In this document: one piece after another, positions 21,795-26,400 of the stretch
How positions within the stretch are numbered: position 1 is the stretch's first letter
How the letters are laid out: each line of letters begins with the position of its first letter
Assembly: GCF_003752365.1 (NCBI RefSeq)
Contig: NZ_RJUO01000001.1
Span: 620,001 to 684,000, forward strand
Origin: Frondihabitans sp. PhB188
GTDB lineage: Bacteria > Actinomycetota > Actinomycetes > Actinomycetales > Microbacteriaceae
Direction of reading: 5' to 3'
Length of the DNA: 64,000 bases
Notes under the pieces: model-generated
Told to the model about the DNA's origin: nothing
Seen by the model: only the letters and a program-made list of their open reading frames with translations
Database searches by the model: none
Made by a program: the position numbers and the translations under genes

Positions 21795-23171
21795 CTACGC
21801 CTCTTTCGAGGTGGTCCAGTGGGCCGGACCAGCCGACCCGGCGGGGTACTTGTCGAGCGGAACCTCGCCCGACTCCCAGGCATCGACGACCGGCGCGACG
21901 ATCGCCCAGCACCGCTCGGCCACGTCGCCGCGGATGGAGAGGGTGGGGTCATCGTGGAAGATGCCCGAGAGCACCTCGCCGTAGGGAGTCAGCTCGGGCT
22001 TGCCCAGGTCGGTCGACAGGGTCGACTTCTCGAGGTGGAACGGGTTGCCCTGACCGTTGGTCGTGACTCCGAGCTCGATGGTCTCGGGGCTGATCTCGAT
22101 CTTGAGCGTGTCGGGCGACGACGAGCCCTGGAGCCCCTCGGGCAGCGCCGGCACCGGCTTGAAGGTGATCAGCACCTCCTTGCGGACCTTGGTCATCCCC
22201 TTGCCGGAGCGCAGGATGAACGGCACGCCGGCCCACCGACGGGTCTTGATCTCGAATTCGACCTCGGCGAGCGTCTCGGTCTCGCGGGAGTTGTCGACGC
22301 CGTCCTCGTCGGAGTACGCGGGGACGTCTTTACCCGAGATCGTGCCGGCCGCGTACTGGCCGCGACGGCTGTTGGCGACGGGGTCTCCGTCTTTCACCCA
22401 GGTGGCGCGCAGGACGCGGGCGATCTCGCTGCGGAGCTCGACGGCGTCGATCGACGACGGGGCGTCCATCGCGATGACGGCGAGCACCTGCAGGAGGTGG
22501 CTCTGGATCATGTCGACGAGAGCGCCGGCCTTGTCGTAGTACTGGGCGCGACCCTCGAGGCCGAGGACCTCGTCGTAGAAGATCTCGACCTTCTCGATGT
22601 TGTCGCTGTTCCAGACCGGCTCGAAGAGGCGGTTGGCGAAGCGCAGGCCGATCATGTTCAGCACGGTCGAGCGGCCGAGGAAGTGGTCGGTGCGGTGGAT
22701 GCGCTCCTCCGGGATCACCTTGAGGAGCTCCTCGTTCAGCTCGCGAGCACCCTGCTCGTCGCTGCCGAAGGGCTTCTCGAGGGCCAGCCGGAGGCCGTCG
22801 GGCACGTCGATCTCCTCGAGGGCCTTGATGACCTTCGTCGAGATGGCCGGCGGGAGCGCGAAGTACATGACCGGCTCGCCCTCGGAGGCCGCGAAGAGCT
22901 TCTTCAGGTGCTCGGGGTCGGTCGGGTCGCCCTGGATGTACTCGCTCGAGGCGAGGGTCTTCTTGGCGAGCTCCGAGCCGGCATCGCCGTTGAAGGCCGT
23001 CTTGACGACGTCGTCCCATTCTTCGGGGCTGCGCTCGCTGCGGCCGGTGCCGATCAGCTTCACGTCGACGCCGCGGTCGCTCTTGAGCAGGCTCGCGAGG
23101 CCGGGGAGGAGGAGGCGCTCGGTGAGGTCACCGGAAGCGCCGAGGATGATGAGGGTGCTCGTCTCCGCCAT
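21795..23171 (-). CDS. zwf: Glucose-6-phosphate dehydrogenase
   Basis: Oxidises glucose 6-phosphate to 6-phosphogluconolactone and makes NADPH. The 458 residues include the dinucleotide motif LIILGASGDLTERLLLPGL and the active-site segment RTDHFLGRSTVLNM (normally RIDHYLGKE), so Ile, Tyr and the Lys and Glu positions of the motif are changed. The C-terminal domain is typical in layout but short. This divergent class is common beside the canonical zwf in actinobacteria, so a second copy may exist elsewhere. The ATG at 23171 overlaps the stop of an 18-codon leader ORF (TGATG) and has no ribosome site of its own. Confidence 0.87.
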   Translation of the reverse strand: MAETSTLIILGASGDLTERLLLPGLASLLKSDRGVDVKLIGTGRSERSPEEWDDVVKTAFNGDAGSELAKKTLASSEYIQGDPTDPEHLKKLFAASEGEPVMYFALPPAISTKVIKALEEIDVPDGLRLALEKPFGSDEQGARELNEELLKVIPEERIHRTDHFLGRSTVLNMIGLRFANRLFEPVWNSDNIEKVEIFYDEVLGLEGRAQYYDKAGALVDMIQSHLLQVLAVIAMDAPSSIDAVELRSEIARVLRATWVKDGDPVANSRRGQYAAGTISGKDVPAYSDEDGVDNSRETETLAEVEFEIKTRRWAGVPFILRSGKGMTKVRKEVLITFKPVPALPEGLQGSSSPDTLKIEISPETIELGVTTNGQGNPFHLEKSTLSTDLGKPELTPYGEVLSGIFHDDPTLSIRGDVAERCWAIVAPVVDAWESGEVPLDKYPAGSAGPAHWTTSKEA

Positions 23172-23227
23172 CAGACGGTCTGCTCGGAGTGAGTCGCGGC
23201 GCTGGAAGGCGCAGTGCGGGTGGTCAT
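23171..23227 (-). CDS. 18-codon leader ORF coupled to zwf
   Basis: An ORF too short for standard calling. It begins at the ATG at 23227, has AAAGGAAG five bases upstream, encodes MTTRTAPSSAATHSEQTV, and stops at a TGA whose last base is the A of the zwf ATG. A TAGGTT -10 at 23246-23251 would start the message about a dozen bases before it. The peptide has no run of one amino acid that would mark an attenuator. It may simply deliver ribosomes to zwf. Confidence 0.6.
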   Translation of the reverse strand: MTTRTAPSSAATHSEQTV

Positions 23228-23436
23228 GGACTTCCTTTCGAGGTGAACCTAGCTGTGGTCCACGTGGCTCAACACACCGGACCGGCAGGCATTCCCATGA
23301 GGTTCGAGGATGCGAGAGAAGGGGCACGGGCGCGAGTGGCCACGATGCCACCATCAACCGTACTGCTCTGCGGCGACTCCGGTACGCACCTGACCAGCCC
23401 TGTGGAAACCCCTCTCCCGCCGCCTGGCGAATGACC

Positions 23437-23460
23437 TACACTGTTCGAACACACGTTCGA
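23437..23460 (+). promoter_or_regulatory. LexA (SOS) box and -10 before dnaE2
   Basis: TCGAACACACGTTCGA (23445-23460) is a perfect actinobacterial LexA operator (TCGAAC-N4-GTTCGA). The -10 TACACT is at 23437-23442, so the operator covers the transcription start. The dnaE2 ATG follows at 23475. Confidence 0.92.
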
Positions 23461-23474
23461 ACGAGAGGGCGGCC

Positions 23475-26400
23475 ATGAGCTTCACGCACCTGCACGTCGC
23501 CTCGGCGTTCAGCGCCCACTACGGCACTGCGCAGCCGGGCCACCTCGCCGCTCAGGCCGCCTCGAACGGCGCCGACGCAGCGGCGATCACCGACCGCGAC
23601 GGCCTCTACGGAGCGATCCGCCACGTCGGCGCGTGCCGCGCGCTCGGCATCGACCCCATCGTCGGCGTCGAGCTGGGCGTATCGACCCCCTCCCCCGACG
23701 ACCACGACAGCCCAGGGCGGCATCCCGCAGGGCAGCGCCCCGCAGGGCAGCATCCCGCAGGACCTCCTAGCGGTTCCCCGCCCATCGCCGCCGACGCCGA
23801 CCGCGTCGTGTTCCTCGCCCACGGCGGCGGCGCCGTCGGGGTCGGCCCGGGCGCCGGCTGGGCCTCCCTCTGCCGCCTCATCAGCGCGGCTCACGGCCGC
23901 GCCACACGCAAGGTCAACGGCAGCGCGAACAGCGTGGCGACGATCCCCCGCGCCCGGGTCCGCGCTTTCCTGATGGGCGACGACGGCCCCACCGGCACGG
24001 TGCTGCTCGGCCCCGACTCCGACGTCGGACGAGCTGTGGCGCACGGCGCGCACGGCCGGGCGGCCGCACTGCTCGAGGCCTGGAAGGCGGAGGTGCCCGG
24101 CGGCGTCGCCATCGAGGTCGTCTGCCACCTCACCGAGCCGGGCGAGAGCCGCAGCCTGCGCCACGCCGCGCGGATGCTCGAGCTCGCCGACGCCGGGCGA
24201 GTTCCTGCGGTGCTCACCAATGCCGTGCGCTACCGCGAGCCCGACGAGGCCCTGACCGCCGACGTGCTCGACGCCGCCGGGCACCTCGCGGCACTCGGCA
24301 GCTTCGAGCCGCAGCCCAACGCCCAGGCCTTCCTCAAGACCCCCGACGCGATGCGCGCGCTCGCCCGGATGATCGCCGACGCGTCGTCGCTCGATCGCCG
24401 CGCGGCCGAGGAGATGCTCGCCGCCACCGAGGAGCTCGCCGACCGGTGCCGACTCGACCCCGACGTCGACCTCGGCTGGCGTCGCGCGAAGGTGCCCGAG
24501 CTGTCGGCGATCGGCGTCGAGGGCGACCCCGACCAGGTGCTGTGGCGGCGGGCCGAGGCCGGGGTGACCGAGCGCTTCGGCGACGCGTCGATGGCCAAGC
24601 GCGAGCAGATCGAGCGGCGCATGCGCGACGAGCTCGAGACGATCACCTCGTTCGGCTTCGCCGGGTACTTCCTGACCGTCGCCGACGTCTCGGCGATGAT
24701 GCGCGACATGCGGGTGCGGAACGCCGCGCGCGGCTCGGGCGCCGGCAGCCTCGTCACCTACCTGCTCCGGATCTCGAACGTCGATCCGCTCGAGCACGAC
24801 CTGCTGTTCGAGAGGTTCCTCGGCAACAAGCGCGAGACGCTGCCCGACATCGACATCGACGTCGAGTCGGCCCGGAGGCACGAGGTGTACCGGGCGATCT
24901 TCGACCGCTACGGCAGCAACCGCGTCACGCTGATGTCGATGCAGTCGACCTACCGGGGGCGCGGCGCCGTCCGCGACGCCGGGCTGGCGCTGGGACTCGA
25001 CGAAGACCAGATCGATCTCGTCGCGAACAACGTCTGGCGCTCGAACGCCCGCGACATGCGCAAGGCTCTCACGGAGAAACCCGAGCTCCGCCAGATCGCC
25101 GACCTCGTCAAGACCAACGCCCAGATCGACCTGCTGGTCGACCTCACCGAGCGGCTCGACCGACTCCCCCGCCACATCTCGATGCACCCGTGCGGGGTGA
25201 TCCTGGGCAATTCCGACCTGCTCAGCATGACTCCGGTGCAGCCGAGCGGCATGGGCCTGCCGATGAGCCAGTTCGACAAGCACGACATGAATGACGCCGG
25301 CCTGCTCAAGCTCGACGTGCTCGGCGTGCGCATGCAGTCGTCGATGGCCTTCGCCCTCGGCGAGATCGAGCGGCTGAACGGGCCGCGCACTGCCCTCGCC
25401 GGCGCCCTGCCGATCGACGCGCCCTATGTGAACCGCCAGGGGCGGATCGAGCTCGACGCGATCCCCCACGACGACGAGCCGACGTACGAGGCGATCCGCA
25501 CCACGCACACGCTCGGCATGTTCCAGATCGAGAGCCCGGGCCAGCGCGAGTTGATCGGCAAGATGCAGCCCGACCAGTACGAAGACCTCATCGCCGACAT
25601 CTCGCTGTTCCGCCCCGGCCCGATGAAGGGCAACATGGTCGCGCCCTACCTCGACACCAAGCACGGGTTCCAGAAGCCCGACTACATCCATCCGACCTTC
25701 GCGCCCTTCCTTCAGGACAGCTACGGGGTCGTGATCTACCACGAGCACGTGCTGCGGATCCTCAACGCGACCATGGGCATCTCGCTCGCCGAGGCCGACG
25801 AGATGCGCCGGCAGATGGAGAAGCGTGCCGACCTCGAGGGCGAGTTCCGCAGCAAGACCGCCGCGAACGTCGATGAGCACGGCAGACGGCGCTACACCGA
25901 CAAGGAGATCGACCGGATCTGGGGCGTGCTGAAGGGCTTCGGGTCGTTCGGGTTCTGCAAGGCGCACGGTGCGGCGTTCGCCCTGCCGACCTACCAGACG
26001 GCGTGGCTGAAGACGCACTACCCGGCGGAGTTCCTGGCAGGCATCCTCACCCACGATCCCGGCATGTACCCGAAGCGGCTGCTGCTCGCCGAGGCGAAGC
26101 GGATGGGCGTGCCGGTCCTGCCGCTCGACGTCAACGCGTCGAGCGAGGTCTACCACGTCGAGCGGCTGCGCCCCCCGCGGACGCCCGTCGCGCGCACCTA
26201 CGCCGGCGACCTCGGCATCCGCCTCTCGCTCCTCGACGTGCAGGGCATCACCGAGCACGAGACCACCCGGATCCTCGAGAACCGCCCGTTCACGTCGATC
26301 GCCGACTTCTACCAGCGGGCCACGCCTTCGCGGCGGCTCTTCGAGCGGCTCGGCCAGGTCGGCGCACTCGACTCGCTGGGAGGCGACGGGCGCAACCGGG

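Follow-up and report, generated by a model that had tools for sequence, protein, structure and literature searches.

A short open reading frame with its own Shine-Dalgarno sequence probably delivers ribosomes to zwf in Frondihabitans

Introduction

How do ribosomes reach a gene when the strong ribosome-binding site in front of it belongs to another reading frame? The question is raised by zwf of Frondihabitans sp. PhB188, which lies in a window of 64,000 nucleotides, the whole stretch of DNA analysed here (all positions are those of the window). A preliminary description of this DNA claimed that an 18-codon leader ORF overlaps the zwf start and that zwf, having no ribosome site of its own, depends on it. 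A TAGGTT hexamer was proposed as the -10 and a codon- or peptide-sensing role was raised.

Mycobacteria have coupled small ORFs of 5-50 codons in which the TGA overlaps the RTG of the gene that follows (PMC4633059, Shell et al. 2015), and for M. tuberculosis 50 small ORFs are reported whose start or stop codons overlap (PMC11133741). The delivery of ribosomes to a coupled gene by short ORFs is a named initiation mode in a 2025 review (PMC12548453), and termination-reinitiation is described at ATGA and TGATG pairs (PMC6728339). Many short translated ORFs of M. tuberculosis show no selection (PMC9094748), which calls for caution with the Frondihabitans leader. No leader ORF before a bacterial zwf appeared in the titles and abstract openings among the matches listed in our literature search, which left subscription papers outside.

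Structure of the zwf leader

The zwf product has the Pfam domains G6PD_N and G6PD_C and matches NCBIfam NF009492 over its cut-off and TIGR00871 below cut-off. There are three zwf copies in the source genome (G000:C1:362636, C1:642656 and C2:86442), and their upstream signals differ. Downstream of the copy studied here lies a convergent GH15/trehalase-like gene. Upstream, in divergent orientation on the plus strand from 23475, is a gene for a DNA polymerase III alpha-like protein, which we take to be the error-prone DnaE2. Just upstream of this polymerase gene a palindrome, TTCGAAC...GTTCGAA at 23444-23461, resembles an actinobacterial LexA (SOS) box. LexA-like boxes also stand upstream of zwf in genomes G001, G002, G004 and G005. 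The features of the locus are as follows.

21795..23171, minus strand: zwf, glucose-6-phosphate dehydrogenase, 458 aa (P0001), Pfam PF00479 and PF02781
23169..23173, minus strand: TGATG stop-start overlap (TGATG in 4/7 and ATGA in 3/7 genus genomes)
23171..23227, minus strand: leader ORF, 18 codons, MTTRTAPSSAATHSEQTV, stop TGA overlapping the zwf ATG (counterpart in 7/7 genus genomes)
23233..23239, minus strand: leader Shine-Dalgarno (SD) sequence GAAAGGA, duplex -10.4 kcal/mol (GAAAGGA in 7/7 genomes)
23228..23269, minus strand: probable 5' UTR region of 42 nt between the -10-like GTTG and the leader ATG (genus range 32-46 nt)
23270..23296, minus strand: candidate ECF SigH/SigR-like promoter, GGGAAT-N17-GTTG (element in 7/7 genomes)

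The leader described earlier is present in all its parts on the minus strand: the 18-codon frame, the SD upstream of it and the TGATG at the zwf ATG. The leader ATG occupies 23227-23225 and its TGA 23173-23171; the zwf ATG at 23171-23169 has one base, the A, in common with this stop. Three bases separate the SD AAAGGAAG from the leader ATG, or five if counted from GGA. The zwf start is rightly placed, with relatives aligning at that ATG or GTG, and the leader contains no zwf-frame ATG, GTG or TTG from which zwf might begin instead.

Because the anti-SD duplex is -2.8 kcal/mol for zwf and -10.4 kcal/mol for the leader, "no ribosome site" is fair wording for zwf. Across the seven genus genomes the duplex energies, all computed against an assumed anti-SD tail, are -9.3 to -10.9 kcal/mol for the leader and -2.2 to -3.3 kcal/mol for zwf. 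Folding from an assumed transcription start gave opening energies of 10.3-16.4 at the zwf start and 3.7-15.2 at the leader start, the zwf value being the higher in 7/7 genomes. The case that structure sequesters the zwf start is nevertheless weak, as the opening energy there is unexceptional within its own mRNA: 4-10 of 20-25 windows are as costly or more so.

Conservation of the leader in Frondihabitans

The genus sample comprised seven Frondihabitans genomes, all with a zwf orthologue (86-100% identity). Every one of them has the GAAAGGA with a start codon 4-5 bases past its GGA (ATG in six, GTG in one), followed by a frame of 12-19 codons that closes on a stop overlapping the zwf start. The distances from leader start to zwf ATG are 56, 41, 41, 35, 41, 41 and 56 nt, and every value is 2 mod 3. 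The distances from the -10-like element to the leader start (42, 46, 40, 32, 33, 42 and 42 nt) vary freely. Frame-breaking indels, which would have spoken against the leader, are found in none of the seven, and the SD and its distance from the start codon persist while the surrounding sequence diverges.

The encoded peptides are MTTRTAPSSAATHSEQTV, MNSRTATRPEQTV, MNTHTATRPEQTV, MTIHTATRFESAA, MNIRTRLELSIR, MNTPAPTRLELARR and MTIHRSDSVRLTRIERSPR, every start being written as M, including the GTG of G001. Compared pairwise, the leaders differ by 0.279/0.351/0.267 at codon positions 1/2/3, whereas in zwf the values are 0.075/0.042/0.226 and skewed to third positions. The even variation in the leader, set against the skew in zwf, therefore indicates that the frame and its signals have been retained and the peptide has not. 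Alignment of the leader in relatives thus finds the coupling conserved and the peptide sequence not, and the leader peptide appears to have no detectably selected sequence. Because the device is seen in seven genomes of one genus, the independent changes behind these comparisons are few (three leader lengths).

These results bear on the proposal that the leader is a sensing peptide, on which ribosomes would stall at certain codons or on the nascent chain and so alter zwf expression. An SD-led short ORF directly upstream of zwf is what such a device would look like, a T-R-x-E stretch recurs in 6/7 leaders (THSE in the window's leader), and where the seven leaders differ in their T and R codons the change is mostly at the third position. 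Overall, however, variation is about equal among codon positions, and the 12-19 codon leaders differ in sequence from species to species. The leaders have no regulatory codon run and no run of a single amino acid. There is no terminator-like site in 23100-23480 and no Rfam match in 22900-23600, and leader and gene overlap. We consider codon or peptide sensing, as raised in the preliminary description, to be very unlikely. The T-R-x-E stretch, together with a GAG found 11 nt upstream of the zwf ATG in 7/7 genomes, could reflect some peptide or RNA constraint, or the GAG could act as a weak SD.

Leader ORFs expected by chance

Coupled ORFs are easily produced by chance if no SD is demanded of them. 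In dinucleotide shuffles of the 120 nt upstream of zwf (3000 per genome), 13-58% of the shuffled regions hold a coupled ORF of some kind; the share falls to 0-0.13% per genome when the ORF must also be preceded by an SD (0.07% for the window's region). The window holds 78 coding-like ORFs; with up to eight starts tested for each, zwf is the sole SD-led coupled case. At about 0.1% per gene a few such ORFs per genome could still arise by chance; it is the conservation in 7/7 genus genomes, and not the per-gene rate, that makes the leader more than a chance occurrence. By the identical test, an SD-led coupled leader is absent from 16/16 Frigoribacterium zwf loci and from 17/17 zwf loci of other genera.

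The leader might be dismissed as a by-product of GAAAGGA, with zwf starting by itself from the weak GAG, without an SD, or on a transcript that begins near its ATG. The abundance of coupled ORFs in the shuffles when the SD is ignored, the invariant GAG and the leaderless look of zwf in other genera (11/17 loci, described below) all lend something to this idea. It must be set against the rarity of SD-led coupling in the shuffles compared with its presence in every genome of the genus, the retention of the SD and its start spacing amid divergence, and the absence, in 7/7 genomes, of any TANNNT from the 14 nt that precede the zwf ATG. We regard an incidental ORF as unlikely.

A mobile element is less plausible still. 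Mycobacterial MIRUs are described as elements that insert at a start codon, the spacing being -4 (PMC12548453), and a similar repeat carrying a short ORF could have landed at the start codon of zwf. The 136-nt region is, however, single copy in the source genome (the next best match is 15 nt, E 1.56), and the leader start pattern is found there once. A mobile repeat is rejected for this genome on these grounds, and such an origin is extremely improbable.

Probable ribosome delivery to zwf

Instead, the leader is probably a ribosome-delivery uORF for zwf. Ribosomes would bind its strong SD, GAAAGGA, and translate 12-19 codons. Termination would then take place at the stop overlapping the zwf start (TGA), and the terminating or just-recycled ribosome would initiate zwf. 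The dependence of zwf translation on the leader proposed in the preliminary description is favoured by the persistence of SD, start and overlap in 7/7 genomes despite divergence and by the very weak SD of zwf itself. We infer leader translation and reinitiation, as well as the displacement of the zwf start discussed below, from what is observed in the DNA: the anatomy, its conservation in the genus, the lack of conservation of the peptide, and the layouts in the outgroup genus g31 and in Frigoribacterium.

A candidate ECF promoter

The TAGGTT proposed as a -10 is present at 23251-23246, but a TANNNT occurs in the 45 nt upstream of the leader start in only 1/7 genus genomes, and the hexamer was rejected as the promoter. 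A promoter scan found no sigma-70-type site. A different element is shared by the genus: GGGAAT-N17-GTTG in 6/7 genomes and GGGAAT-N18-ATTG in the seventh. This resembles the SigR consensus GGGAAT(G/C)-16-(C/G)GTTG (PMC3489674), the spacing being mostly one base shorter than in the consensus as quoted. The source genome encodes a SigH (TIGR02947, 300 bits, over cut-off). Genome-wide, GGGAATN16-18GTTG has 8 matches, compared with 1 for a reversed control pattern. Judged by reading translations, with no family search, the seven other matches include one before a Clp-like protein, two before luciferase-like oxidoreductases and one before a quinone-oxidoreductase-like protein. In C. glutamicum, zwf is listed at 1.65 in the comparison of an rshA deletion with its parent (PMC3489674). 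A SigH/SigR-like ECF promoter probably drives transcription of leader and zwf, and if so zwf would be tied to oxidative or thiol stress.

In Frigoribacterium the element lies within 160 nt of zwf in 10/16 genomes; in genome G298 it takes the form GGGAAC-N17-GTTG and precedes a reductase gene, and the other five genomes are without it. Upstream of the ECF-like element, the sequence AGTAC(G/C)(G/C)T at 23357-23364 is conserved in 12 aligned rows from both genera and is possibly a second promoter or an operator.

Translation starts of zwf in related genera

The zwf genes of related genera start in several ways. In g31 (63-64% identity) a strong SD (-9.5 to -12.4) stands directly before zwf in 6/6 loci. 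Four of these six have a match to the promoter pattern (with CTTG as the -10), and in them zwf starts 43-45 nt after the pattern, near where the leader begins in Frondihabitans. In g34, g71 and g7 (L054-L064) a TANNNT is found 6 nt before the zwf start in 11/11 loci, giving them a leaderless look. In Frondihabitans the second zwf paralog (L026-L031) likewise has one about 6 bases before its start codon. The placement of TANNNT in both groups suggests leaderless zwf mRNAs. Frigoribacterium zwf has a GTG start and a weak SD (-3.8 to -4.3). Because leaderless-looking zwf genes exist in g34, g71 and g7 and weak-SD ones in Frigoribacterium, a weak SD is in itself no proof of dependence on a leader.

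Origin of the leader

In one of 16 Frigoribacterium genomes (G298; L045/L014) a gene for a 291-aa aldo/keto reductase lies directly before zwf with a GTGA overlap; the same reductase protein is found in F. endophyticum (L014). In 11 of the other 15, the DNA before zwf outscores all 300 shuffles in its match to the reductase 3' end; the remaining four match weakly, being equalled by 2-5 of 300 shuffles. Nine of the 11 scars have the reductase frame shifted, and G040 and G304 retain it over the last codons. Elsewhere on the chromosome the reductase occurs in 7/7 Frondihabitans (68-74% identical) and in 2/16 Frigoribacterium (71-72%). In Frigoribacterium at least, the reductase would seem to have once preceded zwf and to have been mostly lost, probably more than once because the scars differ in extent.

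The layout of SD and start in g31, taken with the reductase and its scars in Frigoribacterium, suggests that zwf was probably pushed off its SD and that the leader bridges the gap. The device would have arisen when the zwf start moved some 35-56 nt from an older promoter-proximal SD, with the leader ORF spanning the distance between the old SD and the displaced start. In the zwf tree G005 groups weakly with Frigoribacterium (78/73, midpoint root). Given this weak placement, the leader either predates the split of the two genera and was lost in Frigoribacterium, or arose in Frondihabitans.

More tentatively, the leader may be a fossil remnant of an aldo/keto reductase cistron that was once the operon partner of zwf and lay between an ECF promoter and zwf; we think this possible but doubtful. 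The reductase stop and the zwf start would have overlapped, and the reductase body would later have been deleted. The SD of the reductase, its start codon and a handful of its codons would have survived only for loading ribosomes onto zwf. With the SD included, the reductase start resembles the head of the leader more closely than any of 113 background starts does in 5/7 genomes; in the other two, 5 and 16 of 113 score as high. With the SD excluded, only G002 beats the whole background (0/113), and the starts that score as high number 3 for G006, 6 for G000 and 39-85 for the other four genomes. These comparisons are not independent from genome to genome because the leaders are related to one another. 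The tail of the leader gives no support to an origin from the reductase 3' end, which 12-103 of 113 background ends equal in score. Descent of the leader from a duplicated zwf 5' end was rejected: 17-109 of 116 background starts match the score of the leader's own zwf start.

Relationship to known coupled ORFs

In E. coli a short upstream ORF, uof, is translationally linked to fur, a gene with a poor ribosome site. The zwf leader resembles this pair by description. The small RNA RyhB represses translation of both uof and fur (PMC6191717); no sRNA is known for the zwf leader.

As in the mycobacterial example (PMC4633059), coupling and place are conserved in Frondihabitans and the peptide is divergent. 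In the account given there the mycobacterial ORFs begin leaderless transcripts, whereas the Frondihabitans leader has a strong SD and a probable 5' UTR. A separation of leader start from transcription start is suggested by that SD and by the conserved promoter-like element 32-46 nt upstream. The overlaps also differ, TGATG being found in 4/7 Frondihabitans genomes and ATGA in the mycobacterial type (PMC4633059). Delivery uORFs as described (PMC12548453, PMC6728339) have the same anatomy and the same proposed role, in which the ORF serves initiation and not a peptide. The Frondihabitans case differs in that the gene served is one of central metabolism and in that relatives hint at the origin of the gap between SD and gene. 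The zwf leader thus belongs to a known kind of coupled uORF, and is distinct in its SD-led initiation, the TGATG of four genomes and its history.

Conclusions

The leader offers a compact comparative case in which selection seems to retain the coupling, and not the peptide, for an NADPH-making gene. With two sister genera that between them hold an intact upstream gene, several scars and the leader ORF, the origin of the leader is testable. If it is indeed a fossil of the reductase, operon decay would be one way in which ribosome-delivery uORFs arise, and Frigoribacterium would show other outcomes of the same process, namely an intact partner or a 3' scar supplying a weak SD. The leader also carries a warning that conservation of a short ORF does not guarantee a working peptide.
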